A stretch of 64,000 nucleotides of DNA from Agaribacillus aureus (GTDB lineage Bacteria; Bacteroidota; Bacteroidia; Cytophagales; Cyclobacteriaceae): the NCBI GenBank assembly GCA_030442055.1, contig JAUJEB010000005.1, positions 310,001-374,000 on the forward strand, written 5' to 3'. The notes beneath the pieces were generated by a model. It ran no database searches and was not told the origin of the DNA. It saw only the letters and a program-made list of their open reading frames with translations. A program made the translations under genes and the position numbers. Below, one piece after another: positions 20,169 to 25,158 of the stretch; the first letter of the stretch is position 1; the number at the start of each line of letters is the position of its first letter.

Positions 20169-21470
20169 CTATTTTGACAAGAGGTAGGCTTTTAAATCAT
20201 CAAATCTGTTAGACAGGGGCACCGCTACTTTCTGTTTTTGATAAGCCTCCGCAAGCGCGGGAGGTAAACTTACGGTTTTACCAATGGCCGGGGTTACCAC
20301 ATCCATAAATTTAGCCGGATGGGCTGTAGAAAGTAATACCCCGGTCGCCGGCTGCTGGTTTTTACTTAACCAGGTTTTTAATCCCAGATAGGCGACAGCG
20401 GTATGAGGGCACATGGTGTAGCCAAAACGTTGATGGACCTCTTTCATCGTCTTTTTGGTTTGGTCATCATCAAAAGCCAGCCCGTGAATTTTGTTTTTCA
20501 CAGCCTGTTCATCCTGACCCATGATAGCCAGTATTCTTGGAAAATTACTGGGGTTGCCCACGTCCATAGCATTGGAAATGGTGGCAACGGAAGGTTTTGA
20601 TTGAAAAATTCCAGTTTTCAAATAGATGGGCACAACATCGTTGATATTGGTAGCCGCAATAAATTGATGGATGGGTAAACCCATTTGCTGTGCTAACAAC
20701 CCTCCACACAGGTTCCCAAAATTACCGCTGGGTACGGCAACCACCAATGGCCGGCCAGATTCTTTAAGTTTGGCGTAGGCCTGATAATAATAAAATGATT
20801 GCGGAATGAGCCGGGCGATGTTTATAGAGTTAGCGGAAGTCAGGTTTAGTGCAGCATTCAACTCCTTGTCGAGAAATGCTGTTTTTACCAGGTGCTGGCA
20901 ATCATCAAAGTTGCCATCTACCTCAACGGTGGTTACATTTCCACCAATAGTAGTTAGCTGTTTTTCCTGAACTTCACTTACCTTTCCCTTAGGATACAAA
21001 ATGGTAACATTAATACCCTCGACGCCTAAAAATCCATACCCTACGGCTCCGCCAGTATCTCCGGAGGTAGCCACTAAAATATTGATTTCTTTATTGGTGT
21101 CACGTAAAAAATACTTCATCAGGCGGGACATAAATCGCGCGCCATAGTCTTTAAATGCCAGTGTCGGCCCATGAAATAACTCCATGACATGGATATTTTC
21201 TTCGAGCGGAACGACAGGCGTATCAAAGTTAAATGCATCGTCGATGATAGCTTTCAGAGCGCTTTTATCAACCGCATGTTGTAGCAATTCGTAACCTACC
21301 GTAAAAGCAATTTCCCGGAAGTCCTTTTCCTCAATGCTGTCAAAAAATGTCGACGGTAATTTTGGAATTTTTGTGGGCACATAAAGGCCGTTGTCCGGGG
21401 GCAGCCCGGTTAGTACGGCTTCCTTCAGGCTTACAATGGGCGAAATATGTTTGGTGCTGTATAATTCCAT
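20169..21470 (-). CDS. thrC: Threonine synthase
   Basis: A 433-residue PLP enzyme making threonine from O-phosphohomoserine, last step of the pathway. The PLP lysine K107 lies in HGPTLAFKDYGARF; LVATSGDTGGAVGYGFLG and VPSGNFGNLCGG are the family phosphate/PLP motifs. Length matches the class of E. coli ThrC. It is last in a thrABC operon, starting 3 bp after thrB, under control of the attenuator upstream of thrA. It ends adjacent to the convergent thioesterase gene. Confidence 0.96.
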   Translation of the reverse strand: MELYSTKHISPIVSLKEAVLTGLPPDNGLYVPTKIPKLPSTFFDSIEEKDFREIAFTVGYELLQHAVDKSALKAIIDDAFNFDTPVVPLEENIHVMELFHGPTLAFKDYGARFMSRLMKYFLRDTNKEINILVATSGDTGGAVGYGFLGVEGINVTILYPKGKVSEVQEKQLTTIGGNVTTVEVDGNFDDCQHLVKTAFLDKELNAALNLTSANSINIARLIPQSFYYYQAYAKLKESGRPLVVAVPSGNFGNLCGGLLAQQMGLPIHQFIAATNINDVVPIYLKTGIFQSKPSVATISNAMDVGNPSNFPRILAIMGQDEQAVKNKIHGLAFDDDQTKKTMKEVHQRFGYTMCPHTAVAYLGLKTWLSKNQQPATGVLLSTAHPAKFMDVVTPAIGKTVSLPPALAEAYQKQKVAVPLSNRFDDLKAYLLSK

Positions 21471-21473
21471 GCG

Positions 21474-22403
21474 TCAATCCAATATTACAGGTCCTTTTTG
21501 GTTAATCTTTGAAACGAATATTTCACTTTCAATGCCAATTTGAGCAAATTGATCCTTCATGACCGTCCCTATTTTTCTGGCGGTCCCATCGGCGGTGCTT
21601 AAAGCAAATATCGATGGTCCGGAGCCTGAAATACCACATCCTAGCGCCCCTGCTTCCAGGGCGCTGGCCTTGACCTGATCGAAGCCCGGAATTAGCATAG
21701 ATCGCACCGGCTCGAAGATGGCATCTTCCATGGATCGGCTAATCAGGCCAAAGTCATTCATCGTCAATCCAGCAATCAGTCCCCCTACATTGCCCCATTG
21801 CCTGATAGCACTTTTTATCGGCACATTTTTCTTTAGTATATTTCTGGCATCTTTGGTATTCACCTCAATATTGGGGTGGATGATCACCGCATGAAGGTTT
21901 TCAGGGGTATTGATTTTTATAACGTCCAAAGGATCGTAGCTGCGAATTAACACAAAACCACCCATTAAAGAGGGTGCTACGTTGTCGGCGTGGCCGGTAC
22001 CTGAGGCTACACGTTCACCTTCCAGGGCAAATTTGAGTAGTTCTTCTGTGGTAAGCAATTGCCCCATTAATTGATTAATAGCAAATACCCCAGCCACAGA
22101 ACTGGCGGCGCTGGAGCCAAGGCCGCTGCCAAAAGGCATTTTCTTATGCAAATACACCTCCAGCCCTATATCGCGTTCGACATGGGTCAGATAATTGAGA
22201 ATGGAAATGGTAGCGGTATTTTCCTCAACGGCATGACTTAGCCTACCTTCATCTCCTTTTATTTCCCGGATGACAACACCCGGCTTTTTGCAGGTTTTCA
22301 AAATAATTTCGTCTCCCGGGTTTTCAACTGCAAAACCAAGTATATCGAAGCCACAGGTAACATTGGCGACAGTGGCGGGGGCAAAAACCTTAATGCTATC
22401 CAT
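21474..22403 (-). CDS. thrB: Homoserine kinase
   Basis: A 309-residue GHMP kinase that phosphorylates L-homoserine. The ATP-binding loop PFGSGLGSSAASSVAG (about residues 90-105) and the GCGISGSGPSIFAL motif near the C-terminus are diagnostic. It overlaps the end of thrA by 8 bp and leads directly into thrC, so all three are made from one transcript. Confidence 0.96.
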   Translation of the reverse strand: MDSIKVFAPATVANVTCGFDILGFAVENPGDEIILKTCKKPGVVIREIKGDEGRLSHAVEENTATISILNYLTHVERDIGLEVYLHKKMPFGSGLGSSAASSVAGVFAINQLMGQLLTTEELLKFALEGERVASGTGHADNVAPSLMGGFVLIRSYDPLDVIKINTPENLHAVIIHPNIEVNTKDARNILKKNVPIKSAIRQWGNVGGLIAGLTMNDFGLISRSMEDAIFEPVRSMLIPGFDQVKASALEAGALGCGISGSGPSIFALSTADGTARKIGTVMKDQFAQIGIESEIFVSKINQKGPVILD

Positions 22404-24888
22404 GATTGTTAGGTAAAATATTTTTGATCCCCTGGTAGAGGTAGTTGCTGATACTTATAATTTCGGAAAAGACACCTGCTGCCGTTACCTCAGCACCGGC
22501 GCCAGGCCCCTTGATCACCAACGGCCGGTCATAATACCGACGGGTGGTGAATGCAATAATATTGTCACTTCCCGACAGGCTGAAAAATGGATGATCCTGG
22601 TCTACGGCGGTCAGCTTTACGGTTGCCTTGCCATCTTCCAGCGTCGCAATAAACCTCAATTTTTTCTTTGATTGCTCAGCTTGTGTTTTGAGCGATTCAA
22701 AGTGATCATTGTTCTTGGTTAACTCTTCAAAAAACAAATCAATAGAAGCGGCTTCGAGGCAGGCTTTGGGTAAAATATTCTCTACCACGACATCTTCCGG
22801 CTCCATCTCGATTCCCGACTCGCGAGCCAAAATGAGAATTTTCCTGGCGACGTCCATCCCGTTAAGATCATCTCTCGGGTCCGGCTCTGTGAAACCGCTG
22901 TTTTTAGCTTCCATCACCACCTCGCTGAAGGCGGCATCTCCGGTAAAATTGTTAAAGATATAGGATAGCGTACCTGATAAGACACCTTCGATCTTTAAGA
23001 TCTGATCCCCGCTAAACTTCAGATCCGACATGGTATTGATCACGGGAAGGCCGGCGCCTACGTTGGTCTCATATAAAAATTTGACACCGTGCAGGAAAGC
23101 TTCTTTTTGCAATAGCTGGTAATCCCGGTATTTGCCGGAATTAGCTAATTTATTAGGCGTTACCACTGAAATACTGGCTGCCAGTATCTGCTGGTAAAGC
23201 GAAGTAATTTCAAGATTGCTGGTATTATCTACAAAAATACTATTGGGCAGGTTCATGGCGATCATCTTATCCACAAATGAGTTCAAATTGGCCGAGTTAG
23301 TGGCGTTTTCCAGCGCTTCCTTCCAATCCTTCAGATCGATACCCGCCTCGTCGACGATCATTTTTTTGGTATTGGAAAGGGCAATGACATTGATTTCCAA
23401 TAGGCGCTCATTTAACAGATAGGCTGATTGCGCCTGGATCTGTTCCAGCAGTGTTCCACCAATCAGGCCTACACCTACCATAAAAATGTTCAGCGTCTTA
23501 GATTCGGATATAAAAAAGGCCTGGTGTACTGCATTGAGGGATTTGGACAGGTTTTTTTCATCTATGACCACCGAGATATTTACCTCCGAAGAACCTTGTG
23601 CAATGGCACTGGTATTAATTCCGTTTCTTCCCAGCGCACTGAATAATTTACCCGAAATACCTGGGGTATTCCTCATATTCTCACCAATAATGGCGATGAT
23701 TGATTTTCCCTGCTCTATTAACGGCTCATCGATCCTCCCCCTTTCCATTTCAAATTCGAATTCCTTCTTAATGACCTTTTTAGCACCCTTGGCATTGGCC
23801 GGGTCGATAGCGAAGCAAATGGAATGTTCGGAAGAGGCTTGCGTGATGAGTATAACACTGATATCTTTTGCTGCGAGTGCGCTGAATAACCTGGATGATA
23901 CCCCGGGAATACCTACCATACCCGAACCGGTCAGTGAGATCAGGGTTACCTGTTTAATTGAAGATAGACCCTTGATCAGTCTTCCGGAAGTTTTTGGTTT
24001 GCTGCCGATCACCGTGCCAGGGAATGCCGGGTTAAAAGTATTCCGGATTCTTAGCGGTATTTTTTGGTTAAAGGCCGGCTGCAAACTGGGCGGATGAATT
24101 ACCCTCGCGCCAAAATGTGACATCTCCATGGCCTCTATGTAAGACAGATAGGGCAGCGAGAAAGCGTTTTTTACTATTCTTGGGTCGGTGGTCATTACAC
24201 CGTCCACATCGGTCCAAAGCTCAATTTCTTCGGCATTTAAAGCGGCTCCCAATATGGCCGCAGTAAAATCTGAGCCACCCCTGCCCAAGGTTGTGGTTTC
24301 GTTGTTTTCACCGGAGGCAATAAAGCCGGTTACAATGGGAATAGAACTTATATTTTGGAAGTAGTCGGTAATGGCCTTGTCGGTAAGGGAATAATCCACC
24401 CTGGCCTTACCAAAATCATTGTTGGTAAAGATCAGTTGCCTGCTGTCAACCGGGATAGCATTGATCTTTTCCTGCTGAAAGTAGGCGGCAAGAAGCGGCA
24501 CAGAAAGCCTTTCCCCAAAACTCAGCACCAGGTCCAGCGTGCGTACAGAGAGCTCTTTGATCAACGATACACCATGAAGGATCTCCTCCAACTCATTGAT
24601 GGTCATTTTCAGATTGGCCAGCGATTTACTTTGCGACTGGGTATCCAATAACTGTCTGATGCTATCAGCGTGAATGGTTTCGATTTGTCGGGTGATGTTC
24701 AGGTATTTGTCTTCATTAGCCTCTGCCAACTCACTTGCCTGCGACAAGAGATTGGTTACACCGCCCATAGCACTACTTACGACAGCGATTTCGTCACCCT
24801 GGTCCAGGTAGGAAGCAATGATTTTGGCTACCTGCCGGATGCTTTCGGCAGATCCGACTGAGGTACCACCAAACTTTAATATTTTCAT
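22396..24888 (-). CDS. thrA: Bifunctional aspartate kinase / homoserine dehydrogenase
   Basis: An 830-residue fusion catalysing the first and third steps of threonine synthesis. The kinase half (about 1-300) starts MKILKFGGTSVGSAES, with the catalytic KFGG motif; two ACT regulatory stretches follow (about 310-450, e.g. ISLTGSGMVGIPG); the dehydrogenase half (about 455-830) begins MVGVGLIGGTLLEQI with its NADPH-binding GxGxxG. A GTG/ATG-type frame begins nine codons earlier, but MKILKFGG is the universal start and the upstream codons overlap the attenuator region. First gene of the thrABC operon, preceded by a leader peptide and terminator hairpin. Feedback by threonine via ACT is expected from the family. 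Confidence 0.97.
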   Translation of the reverse strand: MKILKFGGTSVGSAESIRQVAKIIASYLDQGDEIAVVSSAMGGVTNLLSQASELAEANEDKYLNITRQIETIHADSIRQLLDTQSQSKSLANLKMTINELEEILHGVSLIKELSVRTLDLVLSFGERLSVPLLAAYFQQEKINAIPVDSRQLIFTNNDFGKARVDYSLTDKAITDYFQNISSIPIVTGFIASGENNETTTLGRGGSDFTAAILGAALNAEEIELWTDVDGVMTTDPRIVKNAFSLPYLSYIEAMEMSHFGARVIHPPSLQPAFNQKIPLRIRNTFNPAFPGTVIGSKPKTSGRLIKGLSSIKQVTLISLTGSGMVGIPGVSSRLFSALAAKDISVILITQASSEHSICFAIDPANAKGAKKVIKKEFEFEMERGRIDEPLIEQGKSIIAIIGENMRNTPGISGKLFSALGRNGINTSAIAQGSSEVNISVVIDEKNLSKSLNAVHQAFFISESKTLNIFMVGVGLIGGTLLEQIQAQSAYLLNERLLEINVIALSNTKKMIVDEAGIDLKDWKEALENATNSANLNSFVDKMIAMNLPNSIFVDNTSNLEITSLYQQILAASISVVTPNKLANSGKYRDYQLLQKEAFLHGVKFLYETNVGAGLPVINTMSDLKFSGDQILKIEGVLSGTLSYIFNNFTGDAAFSEVVMEAKNSGFTEPDPRDDLNGMDVARKILILARESGIEMEPEDVVVENILPKACLEAASIDLFFEELTKNNDHFESLKTQAEQSKKKLRFIATLEDGKATVKLTAVDQDHPFFSLSGSDNIIAFTTRRYYDRPLVIKGPGAGAEVTAAGVFSEIISISNYLYQGIKNILPNNHG

Positions 24889-24908
24889 TATTTCGTTATT
24901 AAATGAAA

Positions 24909-24934
24909 AAGCCATTCCCGGCGAGGAATGGCTT
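24909..24934 (-). terminator. thr operon attenuator terminator hairpin
   Basis: AAGCCATTCC (minus-strand 24934-24925) and GGAATGGCTT (24918-24909) make a 10-bp stem with a 6-nt loop; the minus strand continues with TTTTTCATTT at 24910-24901. It stands between the leader peptide and thrA. Its 5' arm can alternatively pair with the 3' end of the leader peptide coding sequence (24967-24973), the antiterminator. Confidence 0.85.
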
Positions 24935-24961
24935 AATTTAAAATTCTTTTATATCTATTTA

Positions 24962-25030
24962 TCAAACCATTCCCATAGCTGCACCAGCGGTGATTGTTGT
25001 GATATGGGTTATGGTCGTTAGCATACTCAT
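24962..25030 (-). CDS. thrL: thr operon leader peptide
   Basis: A 22-codon ORF on the minus strand, starting MSMLTTITHITTITAG, with six Thr and three Ile codons in its first 14 residues. E. coli thrL has the same Thr/Ile composition although the sequence differs. It is followed by the attenuator hairpin and thrA. The codons for Thr8 and His9 lie in a segment (25004-25014) that can pair with the leader's end (24967-24976), so ribosome stalling at Thr/Ile codons would free the end to act as antiterminator. The ORF was found by reading the leader, as it is too short for normal gene calls. Confidence 0.82.
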   Translation of the reverse strand: MSMLTTITHITTITAGAAMGMV

Positions 25031-25077
25031 AATTTTGTTTGAAGACTCCTTCGCTGAAGCTTCGGAGCAATTTGCGG

Positions 25078-25107
25078 CAATAATATTATATTTAAAGCTG
25101 GAATCAA
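25078..25107 (-). promoter_or_regulatory. Candidate thr operon promoter
   Basis: On the minus strand TTG (25107-25105) is followed after 19 bp by TATTATTG (25085-25078), one base away from the Bacteroidota -7 consensus TAnnTTTG. Transcription would begin about 40-50 bp before the leader ATG. Confidence 0.45.
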
Positions 25108-25158
25108 AATATTTGATCGGGTTTTAAAATTAATTTAATCTAAAAATCAATGGCCTGC

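Follow-up and report, generated by a model that had tools for sequence, protein, structure and literature searches.

The window analysed here, a 64 kb (64,000-nucleotide) stretch of DNA from Agaribacillus aureus, carries a thrABC operon on the minus strand, and the operon is preceded by a short reading frame rich in Thr and Ile codons and by a set of potential RNA stems. The features of the locus are as follows.

20169..21470, minus strand: thrC, threonine synthase, one of the downstream genes
21474..22403, minus strand: thrB, GHMP-family homoserine kinase, with a GHMP kinase domain
22396..24888, minus strand: thrA, aspartokinase-homoserine dehydrogenase, with amino acid kinase, ACT and homoserine dehydrogenase domains
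24901..24908, minus strand: U-rich tract of the terminator, TTTCATTT, from the sequence
24909..24918, minus strand: region 4, the 3′ arm of the terminator, from folding
24925..24934, minus strand: region 3, the arm common to antiterminator and terminator, from folding
24962..25030, minus strand: leader peptide ORF, MSMLTTITHITTITAGAAMGMV followed by a stop, read from the sequence, with a shuffle-tested Thr/Ile score
24964..24976, minus strand: region 2, pairing through 24964-24973 with region 3 (10 bp) and through about 24967-24976 with region 1
25004..25014, minus strand: region 1, codons Thr6 to His9, the partner of region 2, from folding
25078..25085, minus strand: candidate -7 element, TATTATTG, differing from TAnnTTTG at one position
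25105..25108, minus strand: candidate -33 element, TTTG, a sequence match

The initial annotation had described a 22-codon minus-strand ORF at 24962-25030, the first 14 codons of which include six for Thr and three for Ile, and the ORF was found exactly so. An AAGGAG lies 15 nt ahead of the leader start, a gap that exceeds the usual spacing between such a motif and the start codon; translation start signals of the host group differ from Shine-Dalgarno, as stated in an excerpt of PMC9723704. The likely start of thrA is 24888 (MKILKFGG), and the mechanically called ORF start, 24915, falls within the terminator. An in-frame thrA ATG is located at window positions 24913-24915, within the 3′ arm of the terminator, and the same is seen in loci L002 and L168; an annotation may therefore put the thrA start at this ATG.

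Regions 1 (25004-25014), 2 (24967-24976), 3 (24925-24934) and 4 (24909-24918) all had the coordinates originally assigned to them. The pairing of region 2 with region 3 was also recovered, while its length had been underestimated: 10 bp (24964-24973 with 24925-24934) were computed in place of the 7 bp claimed, and the pairing extends into the first base of the leader stop codon. Similarly, the 3:4 stem of the terminator held, and the tail assigned to it had to be shortened, since 'TTTTTCATTT' contributes its first two U to the stem, which leaves a short U tract proper. As read from the sequence alone, the terminator at 24901-24934 consists of a stem of 10-11 bp and a short U-rich tract. Folding of 24888-25040 gave a z of -2.54, with 3 of 200 shuffles folding equally well, and the 1:2 hairpin, a candidate protector or pause hairpin, was present in the predicted free fold of the window.

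The leader composition was then compared with chance. In the 400 nt upstream of thrA, the best Thr/Ile score was 15 versus a shuffle maximum of 10, and none of 2000 dinucleotide shuffles scored as high. The family sample comprised 98 genomes, 84 of which had ThrA matches, and the upstream region could be read for 85 of the 88 matches; a Thr/Ile score of at least 12 occurred in 26 of these 85 regions, whereas the reverse strand yielded none in 85 and shuffles reached it in 0.2% of cases. In the congener, whose ThrA is 84% identical to that of the window, the leader is MYMITTITHITTGTTGAVRGMV, retaining frame, length and Thr/Ile content although codons change. We termed a thrA leader plus terminator layout like that of the window type A, and found it in 5 of the 85 upstream regions of the family, namely in the window, the congener, Splendidivirga corallicola (L009/L038; a member of Cytophagales with a 69% identical ThrA), genome G030 and the divergent genome G035 (L168).

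A covariance model, R1, built on four type-A thrA loci, had matches in 315 of 390 genomes at E 0.01. Five matches of 97-144 bits precede thrA and the next one reached 52 bits; the model added one genome, G100, and nothing else exceeded 52 bits among the 390 genomes. R1 is of limited sensitivity, having missed the type-A element at thrA in G035. The initial annotation had staked its reading on conservation in close relatives, and both the leader ORF and the stems are retained in the congener, Splendidivirga, G030 and G100, and also in G035 (L168). The tally of weaker R1 matches was set aside; 15 of these many matches were inspected, of which five lie ahead of hisG, four ahead of ilvD and three ahead of ilvE, and the other three are different hairpins. 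Outside the family, 5 of 23 class-level loci with a start found (L218, L219, L222, L223 and L224) showed a Thr-rich leader and such a hairpin, the hairpin of L218 having a weak T tract and not being picked by the script.

The arms of the antiterminator change together among the type-A loci. In 11 of them, region 3 begins 24-34 nt downstream of the stop codon, and the end of its best partner falls in a range from 15 nt ahead of the last base of that codon to 12 nt beyond it. When nine loci were taken together, their own 2:3 duplexes summed to -113.7 kcal/mol, compared with a permuted mean of -89.8 (sd 6.5), and none of 20,000 permutations was as low, a statistic in which related loci are not independent. 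The 9 × 9 table showed the own region 3 as the best partner for only three of nine region-2 arms, because several regions 3 resemble each other. Single-locus p values for 2:3 were 0.000-0.028 in five of the 11 loci and 0.08-0.48 in the six most divergent.

Masked folding, which had been proposed for checking the switch, was performed as equilibrium folding of the transcript with the footprint of a stalled ribosome masked codon by codon. It gave a clean switch in the window and the congener that was not reproduced in all relatives. In the window, masks with the A site at codons 2-15 left 2:3 and those at codons 16-23 left 3:4, and the congener switched from 2:3 to 3:4 at a nearly identical place. 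In a transcript extended at its 5′ end, 2:3 persisted once region 4 was made under masks at Thr6, Ile7, Thr8, Ile10, Thr11, Thr12, Ile13 and Thr14, and a mask at the stop codon gave 3:4. Besides the shortness of the U tract and the rarity of type A in the family (5 of 85 regions), two folding outcomes counted against an attenuator: in the longer transcript with region 4 made, 3:4 won under a mask at Thr5, and without a ribosome 2:3 prevailed over 1:2 at equilibrium until region 4 was made. Among the relatives, L009 formed 2:3 at six codons only and 3:4 at several Thr codons, L036 gave a mixed outcome with a 2:3 fold even without a ribosome, and L168 showed no switch, with 3:4 at every codon. 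For L009, L036 and L168, the attenuator reading would depend on kinetics, or does not hold.

The initial reading also depended on transcription not starting downstream of 24962. A candidate promoter-like element, TTTG-N19-TAnnATTG, precedes the leader ORF of the window and, among five other type-A loci tested, those of L002 and L009 (congener and Splendidivirga); it is missing at L036, L168 and L176. The -7 consensus TAnnTTTG was taken from an excerpt of PMC9723704. Judged by this element, transcription would start about 40 nt upstream of the leader ATG.

The enterobacterial thr leader combines a Thr/Ile-rich peptide, mutually exclusive stems and an intrinsic terminator with thrABC downstream. 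All of these are shared by the window, which differs in having no significant match to the thrL covariance model (RF00506) and in that region 2 adjoins the leader stop codon. Anatomy, conservation, matching changes of the arms and the masked-fold switch in the window and the congener were all observed, and leader composition, conserved stems and the switch support in silico the Thr/Ile attenuator that the initial annotation had proposed. The thrABC leader is thus very probably a ribosome-mediated transcription attenuator; its signal would be the supply of Thr (and Ile), with the leader being translated and transcription being terminated at the hairpin. When Thr-tRNA (and Ile-tRNA) is plentiful, the ribosome would reach the stop codon adjoining region 2 and cover that region, 3:4 would form, and RNA polymerase would stop ahead of thrA. 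When Thr or Ile is scarce, the ribosome would stall on one of the nine Thr/Ile codons and cover region 1, so that region 2 would pair with region 3, the terminator would be blocked and thrABC would be made. If no ribosome is present, 1:2 and 3:4 are predicted to form and the operon would stay off.

Alternatively, the hairpin could be a constitutive or partial terminator, for instance for purE read-through, with the Thr/Ile ORF left untranslated. The position of purE, which lies upstream on the same strand and ends about 160 nt ahead of the leader start, would suit such a role. A plain terminator, however, requires neither a leader nor 2:3, and the locus retains 2:3 besides 3:4, as the congener retains leader frame, length and Thr/Ile content despite its codon changes; we consider this explanation very unlikely. 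The same stem might instead control translation of thrA, with 3:4 masking initiation rather than terminating transcription. Region 4 does contain the thrA-frame ATG at 24913-24915, also found in L002 and L168, and ends about 20 nt ahead of the thrA start. Nevertheless, the stem runs into a T-rich tract in the window as well as in L002 and L168, and the hairpin of L009 lies about 160 nt from thrA, too distant to mask its start, which makes translation control highly improbable.

Descent or transfer would be a further explanation, in that the locus could be a true homologue of the enterobacterial thrL attenuator. RF00506 aligned end to end over 24903-25032, and the pattern of the thrL leader peptide resembles that of the leader in the window. 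The alignment, however, scored no more than 14.9 bits, with an E of 2.7 for 351 bases, far from the curated cut-off of 55, so RF00506 Thr_leader was rejected as the family of this element. Over the order, RF00506 gave many low-scoring places and a single one past the cut-off, away from thrA, and convergence accounts equally well for the likeness; common ancestry with thrL is accordingly given very little credence. The order-wide search itself was uninformative as evidence, with 80 of 98 genomes matching at E 0.1. Its sole place past the cut-off (L202) reads as a Thr/Gly repeat with a terminator behind it, and lies on a different contig from thrA of that genome. No Rfam family reached its gathering cut-off in the 64 kb window, so no T-box or riboswitch was matched there, and five type-A loci had no Rfam match at E 0.5.

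The probable ribosome-mediated attenuator of thrABC has precedents in the phylum. According to section 19 of PMC9723704, there are strong indications that leader peptides attenuate amino-acid operons in Flavobacterium psychrophilum, and an excerpt of that paper counts pheA and hisG among the structured 5′ elements that are conserved; these attenuators have the phylum and the inferred mechanism in common with the window, and the words 'threonine' and 'thrA' are absent from the main text. The Bacteroid-trp RNA (RF01692), described in an excerpt of PMC2864571 as a cis-regulatory candidate in Bacteroidetes, is named for trp and had no Rfam match in the window. An excerpt of PMC2965389 (2010) states that, until the Firmicutes case presented there, knowledge of leader-peptide systems had been confined to Proteobacteria and Actinobacteria. 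Our search of the open-access literature found no thr attenuator described in Bacteroidota, with the proviso that the survey of Lopatovskaya et al. 2010, cited in PMC4833913, may include one. Given the leaders of F. psychrophilum and further leaders in the genome of the window itself, the thrABC attenuator is not unique in the phylum.

These further leaders were found via R1 and two Pfam families. On contig C33 of the same genome, a leader with seven Cys codons, MYKSFLCCCCNCCCLRYHGGKDNYIR (L206; Cys stretch CCCCNCCC), and a terminator precede a PALP-family gene that we read as a cysteine synthase, and the congener has a Cys leader resembling it (L255). On contig C1, two leader-hairpin units stand in tandem (L211/L207) ahead of a small gene, probably ACT-like from its sequence, and then ilvA; another tandem pair (L215/L208) precedes a class IV aminotransferase, read as ilvE, and the congener has the first hairpin and the entire second unit of this pair (L249). 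On contig C31, a Phe/Tyr-rich leader (L209) and a terminator-like hairpin lie ahead of a class I/II aminotransferase, and about 7 kb away a leader with two Trp codons (Trp-Trp; L247) and a terminator-like hairpin lie ahead of trpE; the latter scored 30.4 bits with Trp_leader against a cut-off of 41. The trp, Phe/Tyr, Cys, ilv and ilvE units thus resemble thr in having a leader with fitting codons and then a hairpin with a T tract, and a layout like that of thr precedes ilv, ilvE and the cysteine-synthase-like gene. They differ from thr in their codons and in that two operons have two units in a row, and the 2:3 duplexes computed for trp (-5.8) and ilv unit 2 (-8.8) are weak. In relatives, His leaders and terminators occur ahead of hisG, and branched-chain leaders and terminators ahead of ilvD and ilvE, the identity of the downstream gene having been taken from Pfam for four of them. 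His-rich leaders also lie ahead of hisG in five other loci of relatives (L270, L281, L294, L295 and L298), and no terminator or stop-codon hairpin was seen nearby by eye.

The thr attenuator is known in kind, and extends the leader-peptide attenuation of Bacteroidota by a well-supported case for threonine. Classic attenuators require a ribosome close behind RNA polymerase. Several such attenuators in one genome therefore suggest, by analogy, that transcription and translation may be coupled in the host group, at least in leaders.

A more novel lead came from the relatives. In many members of the family, the last residues of the thrA leader are TTTITG, ahead of a stop, or TP. A stem such as ACGGG-GTAAT-CCCGT encloses the stop codon or closes next to it; downstream comes ATATnGCC or a variant of it, and no terminator is evident. 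The genome of the window (G000) has a similar element ahead of hisG (L246; contig C1, minus strand, about 2187-2228), in which the His leader MSSANKFPTISLHDVIVEAHHFHHSS, ending in a stop, is followed by the hairpin ATTCCTC-GTAA-GAGGAAT, with 7 bp and the stop codon in the loop, and then by ATATCGCC; no intrinsic terminator was seen at L246. The congener retains the stop hairpin at hisG (L299), but has ATATCGTC downstream, and in Splendidivirga (L300) the His leader is accompanied by a terminator-like hairpin instead. A strict geometric test required a stem of at least 5 bp whose loop holds the stop codon, and downstream of it ATAT, one or two letters and CC. Positive were 19 of 96 thrA regions, 11 of the 96 having been added by hand, and 12 of 37 hisG regions; the corresponding shuffles gave 3 of 1920 and 0 of 740, and the reverse strand gave none. 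The exact ATATnGCC occurred in 23 of these 31 elements. ATAT-n-GCC or a near variant lies 9-12 nt after the stop hairpin, and thrA or hisG starts about 80-115 nt after the stop. No Rfam match was obtained for nine stop-hairpin or TP-type loci at E 0.5 or for seven more stop-hairpin loci at E 1.

At thrA, the window shows the terminator type and many relatives the stop-hairpin type, whereas at hisG the stop-hairpin type is found in the window's own genome and the terminator type in Splendidivirga. We give about an even chance to the view that sensor and output of leader-peptide control are separable modules, that a second, undescribed stop-hairpin type exists beside the terminator type, and that the two interchange at thrA and hisG. 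The stop-hairpin type is perhaps an undescribed leader-peptide element and, if real, would be a new mode of leader-peptide action; its output could be Rho-dependent termination or translation control. Downstream of the stop hairpin at thrA, C outnumbered G in 28 of 28 loci, taken from the 32 assigned to this type (type B), compared with 18 of 36 leaderless thrA regions, which hints at Rho, a hint weakened by the same bias in 26 of 28 preceding leader stretches. RNAalifold on the thrA type-B loci found the stop hairpin, but no pair with a change on both sides. Pairing of GGGGTAA with the downstream motif at thrA (21 of 32 loci testable, mean p 0.18) was dropped, the his elements lacking it by eye, and a joint his/thr stop-hairpin alignment was left unused because the his stems were misaligned against the thr stems.

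For the history of these types, a tree of ThrA with 54 rows was used. On this tree, type A (nine rows) needs two changes and may have had one origin. The ThrA of G030 groups (100/100) with other families carrying type A, which suggests that operon and attenuator may travel together. The ten type-B rows form one side of a branch (99/95), and the five TP-type rows need four changes. Three ThrA proteins 53-56% identical to that of the window (L070, L089 and L104) come from contigs filed as Peribacteria, Peregrinibacteria and Delongbacteria, a placement that may reflect mis-binning or transfer.
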